DNA from: a virus
IMG/VR virus record: IMGVR_UViG_3300037324_000014
Location: 1 to 22,005 of that record
Direction: 5' to 3' (one strand)
DNA length: 22,005 nucleotides
Both the position numbers and the translations under genes were made by a program. A model generated the notes under the pieces. The model was not told where the DNA came from, searched no databases, and worked only from the letters and a program-made list of their open reading frames with translations. Positions 8,966 to 22,005 of the stretch are shown one piece after another (the first letter of the stretch is position 1; every line of letters begins with the position of its first letter).

Positions 8966-9457
8966 TTATAATTTATATTGTGTTAATTGTTGCAAGTAAT
9001 TATTTTCTTCAAACCTTGATAAATTATTTAAAAAAGGTGCTGATATTTCCTCCTTGGTTTCAAAAGTGAAATTGTAACCATTAAAATCCGCCCTATTGGC
9101 TCCTAGTGATTTTGAAAATTTACCCCTTAAGCCTGTGTAAAGGCCCAACATTCTTAAAAATCCGTTATTGTCTTTTATTATTATTCGCCAATCCTTTGCA
9201 GCAAATTCTTTGAAATTATCGGTATCTAAAATTTTCTTTAGTTGAAATGATATTTTTTGCTCGTAGCTTTCGTCTACTTCCTCGTTAAAATCAATATTAA
9301 AAGCCTTTAGCTCATAAATTTCTTGTGCTGGAAATTCAACTAAATAATTATCCGCAACCAAAATAGTTGCCGGAGAATATTCCTCGAACGGAAATACATA
9401 TATTTTCTCCGCCCCTCCTTGACTGTTGTCAATATTATTTATTCTAGTGTAATCCAT
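8966..9457 (-). CDS. Paralogue of the major tail protein, 163 aa
   Basis: The 163-residue protein shares the fold signature of the major tail protein encoded at 12069-12581: GGAEKIYVFPFEEY near the N-terminus matches GGVREIYFFTY, KDNNGFLR matches KDYNGQYR, and ANRADFNGYNFTFETKEEIS followed by APFL matches the end of the other (DFNGYNVTL ... APSL). It is therefore tail-tube-like, but it lies in the portal/fibre module between the connector and the tail fibre. It may be a minor tube, a neck or a distal-tail component that copies the tube ring. Adjacent to its neighbours with no spacing (TAAATG on both sides). Confidence 0.7.
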   Translation of the reverse strand: MDYTRINNIDNSQGGAEKIYVFPFEEYSPATILVADNYLVEFPAQEIYELKAFNIDFNEEVDESYEQKISFQLKKILDTDNFKEFAAKDWRIIIKDNNGFLRMLGLYTGLRGKFSKSLGANRADFNGYNFTFETKEEISAPFLNNLSRFEENNYLQQLTQYKL

Positions 9458-9949
9458 TTAAAATCGCCAGCCGTTATTTAAGTTTATATCCATTGCATCT
9501 ACTTCGTCTTGATGCACTTTGTACTCTGGTAACTCGTTTAATTTTATCCACTTATTAAACCTATTTACATACATTTGCGCCATTGAGCTATATCTATCGC
9601 TTAACCCTTCCACCTCTTTTTTATCTACAATTTCCACGTTTTCTGGTTTGTTTTTAAAAAGGCCTGCATTTGTCAAAGAGTATTGAGAAATGGCGATATA
9701 GTCTGCGCAGCTCTCATACTTTGTAATTGGTTTTATAAAATCATTAAAAATTTTTAAATAATTATCCTTTAAATCTCCATCCTTTAAACCTTTTTTAATT
9801 TTGTTGTAAAGGATAGAACCCAAAAGAGGCTCGATGGTGCTTATTTGTGTATTTAAAATGCACATTGTGTATCTGTCAACATCTACATTACCCCCTATTA
9901 TGGTGGTTTCTGTCATTTCTTGCGGTGTAATGAATAGTATCTCGGCCAT
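9458..9949 (-). CDS. Putative head-tail connector protein, 163 aa
   Basis: A mostly helical 163-residue protein directly downstream of the portal and coupled to it by a TAATG overlap, which is the position of head-completion/connector proteins. Its sequence (IEPLLGSILYNKIKKGLKDG, IKPITKYESCADYIAISQYS, NAGLFKNKPENVE) resembles the Bacteroidota phage connector-type proteins I know as DUF6712; this is a recollection, not a search. It would dock below the portal ring and join the tail. Ends NNGWRF. Confidence 0.65.
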   Translation of the reverse strand: MAEILFITPQEMTETTIIGGNVDVDRYTMCILNTQISTIEPLLGSILYNKIKKGLKDGDLKDNYLKIFNDFIKPITKYESCADYIAISQYSLTNAGLFKNKPENVEIVDKKEVEGLSDRYSSMAQMYVNRFNKWIKLNELPEYKVHQDEVDAMDINLNNGWRF

Positions 9950-11679
9950 TATTTTAAACTTCCTTTGTTTGGTTTGTCAATTTCTGCGATTGCCACATCT
10001 TTATCGTTTTTTTGTGGTGTAAAACCTTGCCTTTTTGCCTGCCCTACGTTTACAGGAGATACATTTTGCATTGCGTTTCCTCCCAAAGCCTTGCCATCTT
10101 CTCGCCTTTTCTTTTTGTATATTCTTCGCTCCCATCTGTGGTGGCAATTAACGCCACCGCCATAAAAGAAGATGTTATATTTACCCCCTTCATGCGCAAA
10201 TTGTCCGTTTACGCCCTCCGCACTCATTTTATCTATATCCTCTTTTCTAAAAACTTTTCCGGCCTTAGATAGCTTCATCATTTTATCACAAAAGGCCCTA
10301 CCTTGCCCTTTTGGCTTTTTTGATGTTCCGATATTGTAGGCATATCTTACCTTCCAGAACTCCGTATCTTGTTCACTTTTGGCAGTTGAGGCCAATTTTA
10401 TTTCTTTATCTAAATCGTAGTCTATCGCCTCCAGCTCATATCCTTCTGGCTCGTTTTCCGCATACTGCTCTATAAAATCAAAGTTTTTTTTTTGGCAATT
10501 ACATTCACTTGCAAGTGCTAAATTTTTATCCTCATCATTTACTTTTGCCTCTTCCTCTTTTTCGCCCTCAATTTCTGTAAGTGGTCTCAAATAAATATCC
10601 AAAACAATTTTAAAAAATTCTAAAACTTCGCTAATAGAACCCAAAACAAAATCCTGCTTGGGAGAAATTACCCTTTTCATTAATTGCTGCTCCATCATAT
10701 CCATCTCATCCGCAACCGAAGAAAATCCGGTGGATGCGCTTAATCCAACAAGTACAGGACTAACGCACTTATGCCCAGAAAGTATTTTATTGCTTGCCTC
10801 GTTACCTAAAAAATCCCATTGCTTGTGAGCTGTGTTATTTTCTACGTTTGTTATGGTGGTAGGGTCTGTATCGGAGGCCATAAAATTAAAGGCTTTGGCT
10901 CCAGCGTTTGAGCTTCCAGAAAGTCGGTTATTTGTATCTTTTATAAAAGAATCTTTTTGCCCTTCTGTCCATGCTTTGGAATTTGGAACGTTTACAATTG
11001 ATCCAAACGACAATCCGTTCACAATATGAGAAAGGTAATAATTGCTTAATTCTTCCTCAATTTGTGCGTATTGCAAAGAGGCGTCATAGTCTGGTTGCTC
11101 AAAATATTGTTGCCCTATTTGGTAAGGCTTACCTACAAATATCTCTGGTTTTTCAAAATTAAAATCCTTCCCAAATCCAAACGCTGGATATTCAACAGGC
11201 CTATATTTTGCCTGGTTCCTTTTCTTCCAATCTGAACTATACCAATAAGAGTGAACCAGTCCATCGTCTTCGTTTTCGATTGATGGAATTACATTTGATT
11301 TTGTTAAATGCTCAATTTTTGCAATCTTATTTTTATCTCCTTTTTGTCTGTGGATCTGGAAGGAATGAGCGCCAAAAACTTGGTTGTCTGTTAGTATTGC
11401 CTTTATATCTTTTTTACTAATTATTTTTATAAGGTCCTTATACTCTTGGCTATCCTCTCCTAATTTATGAATGGAAAGGCCTCGCCCATAGGCCAAATCA
11501 ATGTAGGAATTGTTTACTGCCTTGTTTGTAGTGCTGCCATTATATCGCTCAATTATATAAGTATAATTAATATTATTTTCGCCATTCATTACCCAATTTT
11601 TGGCGGTGCTTTCCTGTATTGGCTTTCTCGTATATTTGTTAAAACCAACAAAACGAATATCTCCTTTATTATCCTGCAT
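9949..11679 (-). CDS. Portal protein with C-terminal MuF-like domain
   Basis: The 576-residue protein has portal character in its first about 380 residues: NGENNINYTYIIERYNGSTT (33-52), GRGLSIHKLGED, then DNQVFGAHSFQIHRQKGDK, PEYPAFG-type strands and a long helical segment ISPKQDFVLGSISEVLEFFK. After an acidic hinge (about 385-450) comes a distinct domain: GRAFCDKMMKLSKAGKVFR (460-478) and FFYGGGVNCHHRWERRIYKK (503-522). The arrangement of a conserved Cys, a glycine patch and NCxHxW resembles the C-terminal motif of MuF-type minor head proteins, here fused to the portal. It forms the DNA gate at the capsid vertex. Its start overlaps the preceding 102-residue gene by 11 bases. Confidence 0.78.
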   Translation of the reverse strand: MQDNKGDIRFVGFNKYTRKPIQESTAKNWVMNGENNINYTYIIERYNGSTTNKAVNNSYIDLAYGRGLSIHKLGEDSQEYKDLIKIISKKDIKAILTDNQVFGAHSFQIHRQKGDKNKIAKIEHLTKSNVIPSIENEDDGLVHSYWYSSDWKKRNQAKYRPVEYPAFGFGKDFNFEKPEIFVGKPYQIGQQYFEQPDYDASLQYAQIEEELSNYYLSHIVNGLSFGSIVNVPNSKAWTEGQKDSFIKDTNNRLSGSSNAGAKAFNFMASDTDPTTITNVENNTAHKQWDFLGNEASNKILSGHKCVSPVLVGLSASTGFSSVADEMDMMEQQLMKRVISPKQDFVLGSISEVLEFFKIVLDIYLRPLTEIEGEKEEEAKVNDEDKNLALASECNCQKKNFDFIEQYAENEPEGYELEAIDYDLDKEIKLASTAKSEQDTEFWKVRYAYNIGTSKKPKGQGRAFCDKMMKLSKAGKVFRKEDIDKMSAEGVNGQFAHEGGKYNIFFYGGGVNCHHRWERRIYKKKRREDGKALGGNAMQNVSPVNVGQAKRQGFTPQKNDKDVAIAEIDKPNKGSLK

Positions 11680-11977
11680 AAATATACTTTTGATTTGTTG
11701 ATTTATAGTCTTGTGGTTTCTGGCTAGTAAACAACAACCTACCCCGGTAAACTATTTGTTCGTTTTCAGTTAATTTTAAAGTGTATTTATCGCCCTCTGA
11801 TCCTTTTAATTCAAAAGCCAAACTCATAACACCATTTAAAACTGAATACGTAGCTACTAAATCGGTAAACGTGTGATCGCCATCCTTTGAAAACTTACAA
11901 TTTAACACGCCAGAAGGATAAAACCTTGGGTGTAATTTTATTGTATGGCTTTCGTTTGTGGGCAGTAATACCTTCAT
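11669..11977 (-). CDS. Small virion-module protein, first gene of portal module, 102 aa
   Basis: The 102-residue protein is beta-rich (NESHTIKLHPRFYPSGVLNC, then NGVMSLAFELKGSEGDKYTL and IVYRGRLLFTSQ), with an Ig-like alternation of strands. Comparable small proteins lie next to portal genes in flavobacterial phages, without a defined function. Its ATG directly follows one copy of the 34-bp late element and its 3' end overlaps the portal start by 11 bases, so it opens the third late transcription unit. A head-decoration or neck role is possible. Confidence 0.65.
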   Translation of the reverse strand: MKVLLPTNESHTIKLHPRFYPSGVLNCKFSKDGDHTFTDLVATYSVLNGVMSLAFELKGSEGDKYTLKLTENEQIVYRGRLLFTSQKPQDYKSTNQKYIYAG

Positions 11978-12011
11978 ACTTATATAACCTGAAAATGGCG
12001 ATATTGTAACA
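11978..12011 (-). promoter_or_regulatory. Late element, copy 1 (portal module)
   Basis: On the minus strand TGTTACAA is followed by 13 bases and AGGTTATATAAGT, which abuts the ATG of the 102-residue gene with no gap. Identical blocks with identical spacing occur at 14660-14693 and 21362-21395. The upstream block touches the T-run of the preceding terminator. Confidence 0.75.
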
Positions 12012-12047
12012 AAAAAAAACCTCTCTAATTAATTAGAAAGGTTTTTT
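12011..12047 (-). terminator. Rho-independent terminator after the major tail protein
   Basis: A palindrome with 17-base arms and one mismatch (12014-12030 with 12031-12047, centred on CTAATTAATTAG), followed on the minus strand by nine T (12011-12019). It ends the head/tail-tube transcription unit 22 bases after the stop of the tail gene. Because T-runs flank both sides it may also work in the other direction. Confidence 0.8.
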
Positions 12048-12068: not shown

Positions 12069-12581
12069 TTATTTAGCCAAAGCCAAAAATGCTGCGACTG
12101 TTTCCGTATCTAAACTCGGTGCTAAGTCTCTGGTTTCTGCCACCAAAGTAACATTATAACCATTAAAGTCTCCTCTTGCTCCACCGGTATCGGTGTCCGC
12201 AGTCGATGTTACGTTGAAAGAACGATCTGCTACCCATCTATATTGGCCGTTGTAATCTTTGTAAACTGCGGAAACTTCGGTCTCTAACAATTTATCCAGC
12301 TCCACGTTTGTTTCGCTATTTATTTGGCTTAATTGTGCCACCAAGGTTTGAGTGTTTACTTTTGTACCTGCTTTTTTATCAACTACAACATTTTCACTCA
12401 ATTTATTAACATCGCCTTTTATTTCGTATTTATAACAAGCCGTAATACTTGAATTTATGGCGGTTGCTATACTTGCGGAAACTGTAAAGGCATCCGCAAC
12501 ATAGGTAAAGAAATAAATTTCTCTAACTCCACCCTGCAAAAAGTCTCTTGTTTTTGCACGTCCTGCGCTAATATCTGACAT
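12069..12581 (-). CDS. Major tail (tube) protein, 170 aa
   Basis: The 170-residue protein lies directly after the major capsid gene and before a strong terminator, as expected for an abundant structural protein. It is rich in Ala, Thr and beta strands: GGVREIYFFTYVADAFTV near the N-terminus, VVDKKAGTKVNTQTL in the middle, and RGDFNGYNVTLVAETRDLAP near the end. It should form the rings of the tail tube. It shares several motifs with the 163-residue protein at 8966-9457. Identification rests on composition, position and the paralogue; a head-decoration role is less likely. Confidence 0.75.
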   Translation of the reverse strand: MSDISAGRAKTRDFLQGGVREIYFFTYVADAFTVSASIATAINSSITACYKYEIKGDVNKLSENVVVDKKAGTKVNTQTLVAQLSQINSETNVELDKLLETEVSAVYKDYNGQYRWVADRSFNVTSTADTDTGGARGDFNGYNVTLVAETRDLAPSLDTETVAAFLALAK

Positions 12582-12595
12582 ACTTTTTTATGATT

Positions 12596-12624
12596 TTAAA
12601 AAGGGGTGCTTTTATACACCCCTT
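12596..12624 (-). terminator. Hairpin terminator after the major capsid gene
   Basis: AAGGGGTG (12601-12608) pairs perfectly with CACCCCTT (12617-12624) around an 8-base loop; on the minus strand the stem is followed by a short U-tract. It sits between the capsid and tail-tube genes, so partial termination would raise the capsid-to-tail-tube transcript ratio. Confidence 0.75.
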
Positions 12625-12636
12625 AAATTAATTTTA

Positions 12637-13638
12637 TTATCCTACGTATAAAACGTTAAATTTCTGGTTTACTACGTGCGCAAAAATTGTAAAGATTACA
12701 TCGTAGAAATAGTCTTTTCTAGGTGCTGGATAAGGAGCAATAGAAATATTTGCATAGTCATCCAATAAATCGGTACACCACATATAATTCAAAGGAACTG
12801 CCGCGTGCAATACATTTGGAGCCAATGGAATAAAAACGATTTCTACGTCTAAATAGAAATATTTATCTGCTGCCAAATCAACTGTGAAAGTATCTCTGTG
12901 AGTTTGAGCTAAATTAAAGTTGTTAATTAATTTTTTCACTCCTCTAGGCGCATAAATGTAAGGCTTTTCAACACCGCTTAAAACTTCGTCAGGAATTGCA
13001 TCGTAAACTTTCCCAATTTCTGTTGCAATATTGGTAACGGTTAGCGCAACACCAGCAACTTTAATTCTTTTACCTACTGCGCCCTTGTTAAAAATTACTT
13101 TGGTAGTCAAAGAATCGAATAACGTTACAGGCATTGCAGCAACTAAAGCCTTTTCTTTTGTTCCAATTGCATCGTTTGCAGTTCCAGCGGTAAGCGCAGC
13201 AACTAAAACCTTTGTAGCTGCGGAAGCTCCGTTCCAGTATTTTTTCTCTGCATCTAAAGAAATTAGCGGAGCCACGCCATTTAAAACCAATCTGTTAAAT
13301 TCGTCTGAAACGTCATTAATTGCGCCCGCTTTTATATCTCTACTAAAACGAGTAGAACGCAAATCGTCTGGCGTAAATTTGTCTATGTATTCAACCTTTA
13401 CCGGCGTTACTGTTGTATCTTCTAAACCAACTTCGCCAGATTCGTTTCCCTCTGGATTTACGGACCACGCTTGCATTTCTACGGAGTTAATATTTTCCGT
13501 AATTATTCGCCCAGCCTTGATTCCTGTTTCAAAAGAAACTAAGTTTTTTTCTACTGTATCATTTCTGAATAAAATTTCAGCTATGATCTCTTGTTTGAAA
13601 TCTGTTGGTAATTGCGACCCTGTATATTGTATGCTCAT
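12637..13638 (-). CDS. Major capsid protein (HK97-fold type)
   Basis: The 333-residue protein is the capsid shell subunit. It follows the protease/scaffold gene by nine bases and is followed by a hairpin terminator. Features fitting the HK97-fold group are an N-terminal segment of about 60 residues (FKQEIIAEILFRNDTVEKNL), a beta-hairpin region NPEGNESGEVGLEDTTVTPV (about 62-81), a spine helix with DVSDEFNRLV, and a C-terminal beta-rich P-domain ending YDVIFTIFAHVVNQKFNVLY. It has no long N-terminal delta domain, consistent with a separate scaffold encoded upstream. The alanine-rich middle (ASAATKVLVAALTAGTANDA) is a likely surface insertion or loop. Identification is mainly from position, size and composition. 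Confidence 0.82.
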   Translation of the reverse strand: MSIQYTGSQLPTDFKQEIIAEILFRNDTVEKNLVSFETGIKAGRIITENINSVEMQAWSVNPEGNESGEVGLEDTTVTPVKVEYIDKFTPDDLRSTRFSRDIKAGAINDVSDEFNRLVLNGVAPLISLDAEKKYWNGASAATKVLVAALTAGTANDAIGTKEKALVAAMPVTLFDSLTTKVIFNKGAVGKRIKVAGVALTVTNIATEIGKVYDAIPDEVLSGVEKPYIYAPRGVKKLINNFNLAQTHRDTFTVDLAADKYFYLDVEIVFIPLAPNVLHAAVPLNYMWCTDLLDDYANISIAPYPAPRKDYFYDVIFTIFAHVVNQKFNVLYVG

Positions 13639-13647
13639 TTTGTATAA

Positions 13648-14118
13648 TTATTTGTTTCTGTTTCTAAATTTTTCGTATGCGGTTAAATTTTCTTTAGCCT
13701 CTAAATTCACTCGTCTAACTGATGGGGTAGCCGGTGCCTTTCCTAATTGGATAAGCTCCTCCGATTGTGTGGAAACTTTAAGCTCTAAAGCCTTGATTTC
13801 TTTTGACATTGCCACCGCTTCCTCTTGCATAGGTGCAATCATTTCTTGCATAGGTGCAATCATTTCTTGGATTTTTGTAAGAAAATTAGCTAAAACAGTT
13901 TCGATACTGTCCTCCCCTTCAAGTTTTAACTTTTCAGCGTCCGCTTTCTTTTTCTCCTCTTCCGTTTCTTCGGCTAATTTTAATTTATCAGCCTCCTCTT
14001 TTTCGAGTTTTTCTTTTTCAAGCTCTACTTTTTCAGGTGCTTTTAATAAAGTACCAAGTTTTGTAAAGCCCTCTTTTAATGCTAAAAGAATTGCGCTCTC
14101 GTCCTTTTTTTCTGCCAT
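13648..14118 (-). CDS. Possible internally started scaffold protein (nested in protease gene), 156 aa
   Basis: An in-frame ATG at 14116-14118 (Met181 of the protease) is preceded by an uninterrupted A/T leader (attaaattaaataaa) exactly like the start regions between separate genes in this genome. It begins MAEKKDESAILLALKEGFTK and contains the whole coiled-coil scaffold. Phage lambda makes its scaffold Nu3 from inside the protease gene C in the same way. This is an inference from base composition and domain boundary. Confidence 0.5.
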   Translation of the reverse strand: MAEKKDESAILLALKEGFTKLGTLLKAPEKVELEKEKLEKEEADKLKLAEETEEEKKKADAEKLKLEGEDSIETVLANFLTKIQEMIAPMQEMIAPMQEEAVAMSKEIKALELKVSTQSEELIQLGKAPATPSVRRVNLEAKENLTAYEKFRNRNK

Positions 14119-14658
14119 TTTATTTAATTTATTTAATTTAATTTCTTCAAATTGCATAAAAGCGTCTATTGAAAAGCCTTTATATTTTCCCAGCCTTACA
14201 TCTTCTAAAACCTCTGGATTTTTAATATCCATGATCCCAACCCAACTACCAACAGGATAATTAAGTCCAAAAAATGCGGATTGGTCTTGCTTGGAATCCT
14301 TGACCAACCAAGTTTCCGCAAAACTTACGTGTTCAATATTAATACCATCGTGTTGCCTTGTCGAATTGTTTTGGTTCCCTTGGGCCTGAAAATTGTAGGC
14401 TACATTTTTAACGTCTTCCTCGGTAAAAAAAATCTCATATTCTTCCTTATTTACAGAATCGTATCTTAAAACTGATTTATTAGGCTCTAAGATTAAACCT
14501 ATAATTCTGTTTTTATCTTTTCCTAGTATTGCAAATTCTAACGGCTTTTTTTGCTCGCTAAATTGCAAAAAGTCTTCCTCCATTGCGCCAGCGCTAACAA
14601 GTGAAACGGCATACACGCCCTTTTTATCTGGATTAAATTTTGCTCGGTATTTCTTCAT
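13648..14658 (-). CDS. Prohead maturation protease (XkdF-like) fused to scaffold
   Basis: The 336-residue protein has two parts. Residues 1-175 look like the XkdF/serine-protease group: HDGINIEHVSFAETWLVKDS (103-122) with candidate His103 or His110, PVGSWVGIMDI (135-145), and GKYKGFSIDAFM (157-168) with candidate nucleophile Ser163. Residues 180-336 are highly charged and helical (KVELEKEKLEKEEADKLKLA and following), typical of an internal scaffold. Protease plus scaffold before the capsid gene is the standard head-assembly order; the protease would trim the scaffold after assembly. It opens the second late unit, its ATG lying one base after the 34-bp element. A 7-residue duplication (EMIAPMQ twice) lies at about 265-278. 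Confidence 0.8.
   Translation of the reverse strand: MKKYRAKFNPDKKGVYAVSLVSAGAMEEDFLQFSEQKKPLEFAILGKDKNRIIGLILEPNKSVLRYDSVNKEEYEIFFTEEDVKNVAYNFQAQGNQNNSTRQHDGINIEHVSFAETWLVKDSKQDQSAFFGLNYPVGSWVGIMDIKNPEVLEDVRLGKYKGFSIDAFMQFEEIKLNKLNKMAEKKDESAILLALKEGFTKLGTLLKAPEKVELEKEKLEKEEADKLKLAEETEEEKKKADAEKLKLEGEDSIETVLANFLTKIQEMIAPMQEMIAPMQEEAVAMSKEIKALELKVSTQSEELIQLGKAPATPSVRRVNLEAKENLTAYEKFRNRNK
13823..13867. repeat. Tandem 21-bp duplication in the scaffold region
   Basis: TCTTGCATAGGTGCAATCAT occurs twice with a 21-base period, giving the in-frame protein repeat EMIAPMQ-EMIAPMQ. The near identity at DNA level points to a recent slippage duplication that keeps the coiled-coil heptad register (7 residues). 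Confidence 0.8.
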
Positions 14659-14659
14659 T

Positions 14660-14693
14660 ACTTATATAACCTCTTTAAATGCTTTTTGTAACA
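14660..14693 (-). promoter_or_regulatory. Late element, copy 2 (head module)
   Basis: Minus-strand TGTTACAA, 13 bases, AGGTTATATAAGT, then one base and the ATG of the protease/scaffold gene. The two blocks and their spacing equal those of the other two copies, while the 13 inner bases differ, which argues that the blocks are conserved sites rather than a recent duplication. Confidence 0.75.
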
Positions 14694-20182: not shown

Positions 20183-20637
20183 TATGATAATATCATTTCA
20201 CTATTTGGAAGCTCTACTGTAAAAGTTAAAACATAACCCACCGCACTATCTTTATCGCTTAACCATTGGCGAAGGGTGCAATTATCTGGGGCCTTTATTC
20301 CCTTATCTTCAAAGTCATGGTTTATACTCGTCCAGAATCTATTTAGGACCGCCAGCGTTTCATTATAAACATCAACCTCGTTGTTGTTATTGAAAAAATT
20401 ATCTTCTTTATTGTCTAAATTTGTTAGAACTGCATCAATTACGGCCACCTCTAAATTAAAACCAACTGTTTGCCCATTTGTAAAAAAAGGATCTCCAATA
20501 ACAATGTGAGCAAGCGTATAAATATTTGTTTTATTTAATGCGACCTTGCTAAAATCTCCCTGCGTGATGGTATTCACTAAAGAATCACTTTTTAAAAGTT
20601 CTCTTAAATAAAGTAAAAGGCTTGTATAATGGTTCAT
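20182..20637 (-). CDS. Putative tail terminator protein, 151 aa
   Basis: The 151-residue protein has an N-terminal helix (YTSLLLYLRELLKSDSLVNT), then IYTLAHIVIGDPFFTNGQTV and FNLEVAVIDAVL, a central helix (EVDVYNETLAVLNRFWTSIN), and a final strand pair (AVGYVLTFTVELPNSE). Alpha/beta/helix/beta order, length and position next to the gp10-like gene fit the tail-terminator (gpU-like) group that caps the tail tube. The gene has start-to-stop coupling with the gp10-like gene downstream (TAATG) and starts one base after the chaperone extension ends. Confidence 0.6.
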   Translation of the reverse strand: MNHYTSLLLYLRELLKSDSLVNTITQGDFSKVALNKTNIYTLAHIVIGDPFFTNGQTVGFNLEVAVIDAVLTNLDNKEDNFFNNNNEVDVYNETLAVLNRFWTSINHDFEDKGIKAPDNCTLRQWLSDKDSAVGYVLTFTVELPNSEMILS

Positions 20638-20638
20638 T

Positions 20639-20884
20639 TTAATTCTGTGTCTGTATTGAATGTTTTACTTTCATGGTGTCATTTCTGCAAGCTAGCAATG
20701 TGTGTATTTCGTGTATTTTTGTTTGCATTAAAATATCCAATTCTGATTTATTGCCATTTGCCAAATCAAAAAGCGTAGCATAAAAACCCCACTTATTAAA
20801 ATATTCTAGTGCGCTATTTCCTTCGCTCGTTCCTCCGCCATAGACTTCTGGATAGAGGCCTCTAAAGTTTTCGATAAACTCCAA
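20639..20884 (-). CDS. Frameshift extension of tail assembly chaperone (T part of G-T), 81 codons
   Basis: This frame has no ATG at its start; it opens at the T-run with TTG and lies in the -1 frame relative to the 184-residue gene. It encodes EFIENFRGLYPEVYGGGTSE and GNSALEYFNKWGFYATLFDL ... LMQTKIHEIHTLL, the conserved C-terminal part seen in GT-type tail chaperones of long-tailed phages. It should be made as a fusion: 159 codons of the upstream frame, then 81 here, about 240 residues. The extension binds tail-tube subunits while the shared part coats the tape measure. Independent initiation at TTG is unlikely. Confidence 0.75.
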   Translation of the reverse strand: MEFIENFRGLYPEVYGGGTSEGNSALEYFNKWGFYATLFDLANGNKSELDILMQTKIHEIHTLLACRNDTMKVKHSIQTQN

Positions 20885-21360
20885 AAAAAAACATTGAAAC
20901 CTTTTGCAATTGCGATGGGTGTCTGTTTCATAATTTCAGAAAGTTCGCTTGTACCGCTATAATTTACTATCTGATAATTTTTAAAATTGTCTTTTAATTT
21001 TATGGGCCTAAATCCTACCGCCATAAATAAGTGTAGAAACTCATCTTTGCCAAAGTATCTAATAAGGTCATCGTATTCGCTGCCGGTTATTTTATCAAAG
21101 TTTGGAATCATGCCAAACTCGATACCATTTAAAACAAACCTTTGTTTAAATTCCCCCTCTTTTAAAAGTGCTTTTTCGATGGTATCAGTTAAAAATATTC
21201 TATCCAATTGGGTAATATCTCCAGCGTTTTTTATGCCTGTAAAAACTTCTATAATTTCATTATCCATTTCAAAACCAGAAAGATTGGATTTGCTGATAGC
21301 ATCAATTTTTTGAAATTGGTCTATTGTGATTTCGTCTGGAATTGTGATTTTTACTTTCAT
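20806..21360 (-). CDS. Tail assembly chaperone (G part), 184 aa
   Basis: The 184-residue helical protein (MKVKITIPDEITIDQFQKID, EVFTGIKNAGDITQLDRIFL, KDNFKNYQIVNYSGTSELSE, ending KSMAEERAKEIAH) is the first gene of the tail module, with terminase just upstream. The order chaperone, overlapping -1 extension, tail terminator and tape measure is the standard tail set. It coats the tape measure protein before tube assembly. The ATG lies one base after the 34-bp late element. Confidence 0.78.
   Translation of the reverse strand: MKVKITIPDEITIDQFQKIDAISKSNLSGFEMDNEIIEVFTGIKNAGDITQLDRIFLTDTIEKALLKEGEFKQRFVLNGIEFGMIPNFDKITGSEYDDLIRYFGKDEFLHLFMAVGFRPIKLKDNFKNYQIVNYSGTSELSEIMKQTPIAIAKGFNVFFWSLSKTLEASIQKSMAEERAKEIAH
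20882..20891 (-). promoter_or_regulatory. Programmed -1 frameshift slippery site
   Basis: On the minus strand nine T followed by G read GTT TTT TTT TGG in the first frame. The final seven T before the G fit the slippery heptamer T TTT TTT; slipping back one base gives TTG GAG, entering the extension frame. Confidence 0.75.
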
Positions 21361-21361
21361 T

Positions 21362-21395
21362 ACTTATATAACCTAAGAATGGCCATTTTGTAACA
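21362..21395 (-). promoter_or_regulatory. Late element, copy 3 (tail module)
   Basis: Minus-strand TGTTACAA, 13 bases, AGGTTATATAAGT, then one base and the ATG of the tail chaperone. It fills nearly all of the 42-base gap after the terminase gene. Confidence 0.75.
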
Positions 21396-21402
21396 AAAGA
21401 AT

Positions 21403-22005
21403 TTAGCGCATTAATTCAAAGTCTGAATTTCCCTGCAAGTGATAATACACATTGTATCGGAGCGCATCAATTAAATGATTCCAATCATCCTTGTATGTTT
21501 TTGAGCCTTTATCTGCGTACACGTGATTATTAAATTCTTTCACTAAGTTTATACTTATCGGGTCTACTATTATTTCGTAGTCCTGCAAAAACATTATTCC
21601 GGCGGTTATACTTCCAGCACCTTTTTTGACTCCTTCAATATTACAATCAACTGCCAGCTCTGAAATTAAACGAGGCTCTGCACTATCCGCAATAATTAAT
21701 TTGTTACCGCAAAATGTTTTGTTTATTTCGGCTATCTGCGAAGTTTTTAAACTAGGCTTATATAATAATTCTTTTGCGTATATTTTTTTTAGTTTCTTAT
21801 CAATGGCAACTTCTACTAGGGTAGTTGGATCGCTTGAAAATCCATAATCTTGCCCGAAGGAAGTCTGTAAATTGTCAGGATTAAATGGTCCATATTTCCA
21901 ATTTTCAATAACAACGCCCTCCGCTTTGTTAAGCCATCCACCCAAATACTTGTGCTTATATTTTTTAAAGTCTGTTTTTTTTACACCTTCTATTTTGTTT
22001 AAAAA
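21403..22005 (-). CDS. terL: Terminase large subunit, C-terminal nuclease part (5' end beyond window)
   Basis: The minus-strand frame stays open from the right edge to the stop at 21403 (200 residues), so only the C-terminal part is present. It shows the RNase H-like nuclease of large terminases: FGQDYGFSSDPTTLVEV with a catalytic Asp, LIIADSAEPRLISEL with a second Asp, and DDWNHLIDALRY with the third, the acidic triad that binds metal and cuts packaged DNA. The pattern GxDYGF ... ADSAEP ... HxxDAxRY is that of PBSX-type terminases. The ATPase half lies to the right of the window. The tail module follows after 42 bases. Confidence 0.9.
   Translation of the reverse strand, partial: FLNKIEGVKKTDFKKYKHKYLGGWLNKAEGVVIENWKYGPFNPDNLQTSFGQDYGFSSDPTTLVEVAIDKKLKKIYAKELLYKPSLKTSQIAEINKTFCGNKLIIADSAEPRLISELAVDCNIEGVKKGAGSITAGIMFLQDYEIIVDPISINLVKEFNNHVYADKGSKTYKDDWNHLIDALRYNVYYHLQGNSDFELMR

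Follow-up and report, generated by a model that had tools for sequence, protein, structure and literature searches.

A three-copy element ahead of the late gene units of a temperate flavobacterial phage as a candidate promoter for a phage-encoded ECF sigma factor

Introduction

In Bacillus subtilis, the PBSX prophage protein Xpf controls the late operon, and the bacterial sigma factors SigX and SigW read promoters of the types TGTAAC-N17-CGAC and TGAAAC-N16-CGTA. Xpf has been called sigma-like (PMC4243946). In phages phiEco32 and 7-11, a phage sigma factor distant from the host's own family redirects the host RNA polymerase, and the promoters driven by it precede structural genes (PMC4331800). 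The motifs recognized by ECF sigmas are in general AAC in the −35 and CGT in the −10 (PMC4153023), and Flavobacterium has a CGT-type class of ECF promoters (PMC9723704). For the control of late genes in flavobacterial phages we found no account in open-access full texts, a scope outside which most of the subscription papers lie.

Here, we describe a two-block element that stands against the start codons of three late genes in a window of 22,005 bases, and that recurs ahead of the same three genes in related phages, many of which encode an ECF-like sigma factor near terL. We consider it probable (roughly 0.8) that these elements are late promoters from which an ECF sigma encoded by the phage starts transcription, at the AUG or right beside it.

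Results and discussion

The window is a whole IMG/VR record, a fragment that ends inside terL. With an integrase and a CI-like repressor on the plus strand, it belongs to a temperate tailed phage, and its hosts are flavobacteria. The minus strand carries the end of terL, tail genes, a tape measure gene, a protease-like gene, a presumed capsid gene, a portal gene, and an endolysin gene. The capsid label (MCP, 12637-13638) was given by position only, as its family, phrog_11320, has no known function.

The window has exactly 3 exact copies of the pattern TGTTACAA-N13-AGGTTATATAAGT, where 0 are expected by chance, and each is on the minus strand. Copy 1 (21362..21395) is separated by 1 base from the ATG at 21360, which opens the first gene after terL; copy 2 (14660..14693) lies 1 base from the start codon of the protease/scaffold-like gene (ATG at 14658); and copy 3 (11978..12011) abuts the ATG at 11977 of a small gene preceding the portal gene. 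The 13 inner bases of the three copies are unrelated to each other. No fourth copy of the two-block element was found in the window at up to 3 mismatches, and none of 100 dinucleotide shuffles of the window yielded any. Either half alone was rejected as a motif, not being clearly over chance in this AT-rich genome (at up to 3 mismatches, the window has 18 occurrences of AGGTTATATAAGT against 13.8 expected), so the signal is carried by the spacing of the two blocks. No copy stands ahead of the other late genes of the window; a loose match ahead of the gene at 9458-9949 is without the ATATA part and was treated as chance. An earlier note, made from the sequence alone, had claimed these three positions and their strand, the constant 13-base separation with varying inner bases, the distance of 0 to 1 base to an ATG, and the lack of copies before other genes, and all of this holds; the motif search that it had proposed as a check returned, within the window, these three copies only.

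The note had also placed each copy before the first gene of a functional module, and the three genes do open late modules. Presumably, copy 1 governs 20806..21360, the first gene of the tail unit (phrog_32199, function not known), copy 2 governs 13648..14658, the protease-like first gene of the head unit (phrog_15223, 1e-6; phrog_24921, 4e-41), and copy 3 governs 11669..11977, the small first gene of the portal unit, which matches no PHROG and has orthologues in relatives. All three are on the minus strand, as are the C-terminal part of terL cut by the record end (21403..22005) and the portal gene itself (9949..11679; phrog_33693, 3e-90), which is second in its unit and has no element of its own. 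The names that had been given to these genes fared differently: portal and protease are both borne out, protease by a weak PHROG match. Tail chaperone finds no backing in the family search, which returned only the phrog_32199 match, and is compatible with a conserved overlapping frame. That frame (20639-20884, minus strand) overlaps the end of 20806-21360 in another reading frame and starts at a run of T; the arrangement is conserved in relatives, and the two frames look like a programmed-frameshift pair of tail-assembly chaperones. Elsewhere in the strand, the proteins of 12069-12581 and 8966-9457 both match phrog_19091, which suggests a duplicated virion gene flanking the portal unit.

A strong intrinsic terminator hairpin of 15 pairs with a T tract (12014..12047, minus strand; −15.2 kcal/mol, z −4.9) closes the head unit just upstream of copy 3, and terminator-like hairpins occupy the same place in several relatives; a terminator immediately before copy 3 is expected if the transcription units are separate. 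A second hairpin with a T tract (12601-12624, −14.8 kcal/mol) lies between the presumed capsid gene and 12069-12581, at a junction with no new promoter, and a similar hairpin is found there in nearly all relatives; it is probably an attenuator that reduces expression after the capsid gene.

The terminator also bears on whether the element could act in translation, as a conserved 5′ leader, Kozak-like or structured, by which ribosomes would be recruited to each module's first gene. The element always abuts the ATG, as such a leader would, and flavobacteria, having no Shine-Dalgarno sequences, rely on the context upstream of the start (PMC6847099). The element is nevertheless missing from the remaining start codons of these operons, its constrained outer block lies ~30 nt upstream at a fixed spacing, and copies 1 and 2 fold no better than shuffled sequences, while copy 3 has a terminator directly upstream. 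Furthermore, the A that F. johnsoniae favors at −3 is present in 0/3 window copies, with G at −3 in both copies that have one base before the ATG. We regard a translation signal as the least probable of the explanations considered here.

Relatives with the same gene order were collected by portal-based and other searches; the protease protein used as a single-sequence query found no relatives by that route. The exact 34-bp pattern has no match in IMG/VR and GTDB genomes because its spelling varies between phages. Protein identity to the relatives is often no more than 25-60%, yet at all three positions the same two blocks are kept ahead of the orthologues, and the element there reads GTNACAA-N13/14-[A/C]GTTATAnnan-ATG. 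With one fixed pattern it was found at 82 of 158 orthologue starts overall; by gene, the counts are 19/57 for the one after copy 1 (labelled chap), 27/45 for the one after copy 2 (prot), and 36/56 for the one after copy 3 (g11669), where shuffled sequence gives 0.16-0.22 each. Eleven other late genes served for comparison, and among their 403 starts the element was found once. Among the distant orthologues, about half of the starts have no recognizable element under the pattern used. The spacing ACAA-N15-GTT holds in 77 of 83 cases, with 7-11 nt (mode 8) from GTT to the ATG, and a matrix fitted to 116 sites reads GTAACAAA-N13-CGTTATATAA-n2-ATG. The search of related phages suggested in the earlier note thus places the element before the same three genes, and this comparative evidence supports its proposal of a phage-specific late promoter.

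As an independent test, a strict pattern was scanned over 2.9 million IMG/VR contigs with no protein criterion. It matched 12 places in 11 contigs, of which 11 sit exactly ahead of an orthologue of one of the three genes; the twelfth, before a frame of 9 aa, is a chance match. Whole or long records were also scanned with the matrix, and hits were kept only if they had an ATG no more than a few bases away and an ORF of at least 30 codons; this returned mainly the three-gene sites and close to nothing in shuffles. Scanning GTDB with a portal profile led to a single prophage, in Flavobacterium sp. MFBS3-15. This prophage (NZ_JAPCHV010000022.1) has an ECF-like sigma of its own, and a CATTA-type variant of the −10 at all three genes.

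As far as sequence can tell, the element is laid out like a promoter for an ECF sigma and not like a host TTTG/TAnnTTTG promoter. The distance from the −35 (TGTAAC/TGTTAC) to the −10 (NGTT) is ~16 bp, within the 16-17 bp of ECF promoters. In the matrix, the −35 has A at its third position with a frequency of 0.59, followed by ACA at 0.93/0.82/0.89, and its core is AAC in close relatives and TAC in the window (GTTACAA). In the −10, GTT is near-invariant (0.90-0.93); it is preceded by a C in 0.61 of sites, by an A in most close relatives, and by a G in the window, and CATT stands here in the Flavobacterium prophage. Across the relatives, the consensus broadly agrees with the ECF rule, and the window departs from it with TAC for AAC and GGTT for CGTT. 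Neither the window copies nor the matrix have a TTTG after the TA of the inner block, as TAnnTTTG at −12 to −5 would require, in keeping with the earlier remark that the element does not match this host consensus. A scan for sigma-70 sites of E. coli type gave 66 against 65.4 expected, a number in line with chance.

The earlier note had left a choice between a late promoter and an activator site, and here the evidence favors the former. In an activator-dependent arrangement, TGTTACAA would be bound by a phage activator as its operator, and the host primary sigma would use AGGTTATATAAGT as a weak −10. Many phages use late activators, and the near-palindrome noted in TTGTTACAA is real in two of the three window copies; it is broken in the 14.7-kb copy, which reads GTGTTACAA, and it is not kept in relatives (GTAACAA, GTGACAA, GGGACAA, GTCACAA). 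The −10 moreover co-varies as well and is not TAnnTTTG, and the conserved factor near terL is a protein of sigma type. The promoter half of the proposal stands, and with the palindrome unconserved, blocks and spacing that are ECF-like, and a sigma in the relatives, an activator is improbable.

An argument for a dedicated recognition protein comes from the way in which the spelling varies between phages and agrees within one. The window spells the blocks GTTACAA/GGTTATA, its close relatives GTAACAA/AGTTATA, and other phages GTGACAA, GGGACAA, GTCACAA, ATAACAA, or GCAAAA with CGTT, or CATT in the Flavobacterium prophage. At the variable −35 and −10 positions, copies within one phage agree in 95 of 104 comparisons, against 56.7 ± 4.5 with permuted partners and a maximum of 75 in 5,000 permutations; the representatives were hand-picked and are unequally distant, making the significance only indicative. 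A coarser version of the test with 15 clusters was in support, and the spacer, used as a control, shows no concordance (84/208 against 80.4 expected). Blocks that are concordant around a spacer that is not point to co-evolution with one recognizing protein, as expected if a single trans-acting factor reads all copies in a phage. Had the element been duplicated recently, the spacer would have been preserved as well. Such agreement within a genome would also arise with a co-evolving activator.

The concordance further informs the question of whether a host ECF sigma, induced by infection or stress, might read the promoter in place of a phage sigma. F. psychrophilum has 7 ECF sigmas besides its CGT-type class of ECF promoters (PMC9723704), and the window record itself holds no sigma gene. 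A spelling that differs between phages and agrees within each, in contrast, speaks for a factor that travels with the phage, and a sigma is encoded in most records that contain terL together with upstream sequence. A host ECF sigma is thus highly improbable, and a sigma encoded by the phage is the reading that we follow.

The relatives carry ORFs of 137-200 aa for ECF-like sigma factors, which were found with PF04542 in 24 of 51 records and with a profile of the family itself in 34 of 52, many of these records being fragments. The region 4 model PF08281 was too weak as a marker (5/51). All 18 aligned proteins match TIGR02937 (sigma70-ECF), the member shown falling under the curated cut-off of that model, and 16 of 18 match Sigma70_r2 (PF04542); a few have matches to region 4 models. 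The best matches in a profile search of PDB sequences are ECF sigmas. The predicted structure has two helical domains with moderate confidence (pLDDT 75.7, pTM 0.41), and Foldseek with this model puts ECF sigmas on top. With only sigma-2 and sigma-4 domains at ~140-200 aa, the protein has the make-up of an ECF sigma.

Both genes are present in 23 records, and in 18 of these the sigma gene is encoded on the same strand as terL and 0.5-1.5 kb upstream of it, 2 of the distances being taken across the ends of records assumed to be circular; the remaining distances are one of 2.1 kb and four of 5.5-8.6 kb. No sigma was found in G011, G037, and G038, three records in which the sequence upstream of terL exceeds 3 kb. 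Neither PF04542 nor the family profile found a sigma gene in the window record, because it is cut at terL, short of that locus, and we assume that the window phage carries its own. Sigma and promoters occur in the same genome in several relatives (G002, G003, G006, G015, G020, and P12024S). In the last of these, a cultured Nonlabens phage, a gene matching Sigma-70 region 2 lies upstream of the terminase, and the element occurs in the phage's own spelling, AAAACAA-N15-CGTTAATA, in 6-7 copies directly ahead of annotated ORFs; with N14 the pattern has a single copy, the spacer there being mostly one base longer. The gene P12024S_33 (20595-21074) belongs to phrog_31712, which is listed as of unknown function and has a member in this sigma family.

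Taken together, promoter function of the elements is well supported by these comparisons, and we infer that the phage sigma reads them. In the model we favor, the host sigma would drive early and middle transcription, through which the phage sigma is made; host core RNA polymerase with the ECF-like phage sigma would then recognize the three elements, with the outer block TGTTACAA (GTNACAA in relatives) as the −35 and the inner GGTTATA ([C/A]GTTATA in relatives) as the −10. This would yield three separate late transcripts, for the tail, for the head, and from the portal unit onward. A −10 ~8 nt before the ATG implies, from geometry, a start at or next to the A of the AUG (at or within ~3 nt), and in each unit the mRNA would have no leader, or almost none, ahead of its first cistron. 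Leaderless late mRNAs are thereby predicted in a group where such mRNAs are a small minority: they make up only 5.5% in F. psychrophilum (PMC9723704), and in F. johnsoniae the predicted leaders are longer than 10 nt in 87% of cases (PMC6847099).

Conclusions

Through the element, late transcription in dozens of uncultured phages becomes accessible from sequence, and it points to a sigma family listed as of unknown function in PHROGs as the switch. Its lineage-specific spellings could yield orthogonal pairs of promoter and sigma for Bacteroidota genetics.

Phage sigmas that switch on structural genes are already known from phiEco32, 7-11, and PBSX Xpf, and the strategy is not new. Like phiEco32 and 7-11, the system proposed here would use a phage sigma distant from the host family, with promoters ahead of structural genes; those are lytic enterobacterial phages, however, with the consensus TAATGTATA and no two-block AAC/CGT promoter. 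Xpf shares with it a small, prophage-encoded, sigma-like protein acting on late genes; PBSX is a Firmicute prophage, and we know of no multi-copy, start-abutting promoters in PBSX. The Flavobacterium ECF class SM6 differs in serving host genes (T9SS, Band-7) with host ECF sigmas, and the text of the paper describing it makes no mention of phages (PMC9723704). Promoters of the SigX/SigW type resemble the element of the relatives in the AAC core of the −35, the CG of the −10, their separation by 16-17 bp, and a two-domain sigma, but belong to bacterial envelope-stress regulons with anti-sigma factors. Set against these systems, what may be particular here, though we put it at somewhat below even odds, is a whole family of Bacteroidota phages with phage-ECF-sigma promoters for their virion genes placed against the start codon, leaderless late operons, and a lineage-specific match of promoter and sigma that would amount to many orthogonal pairs.
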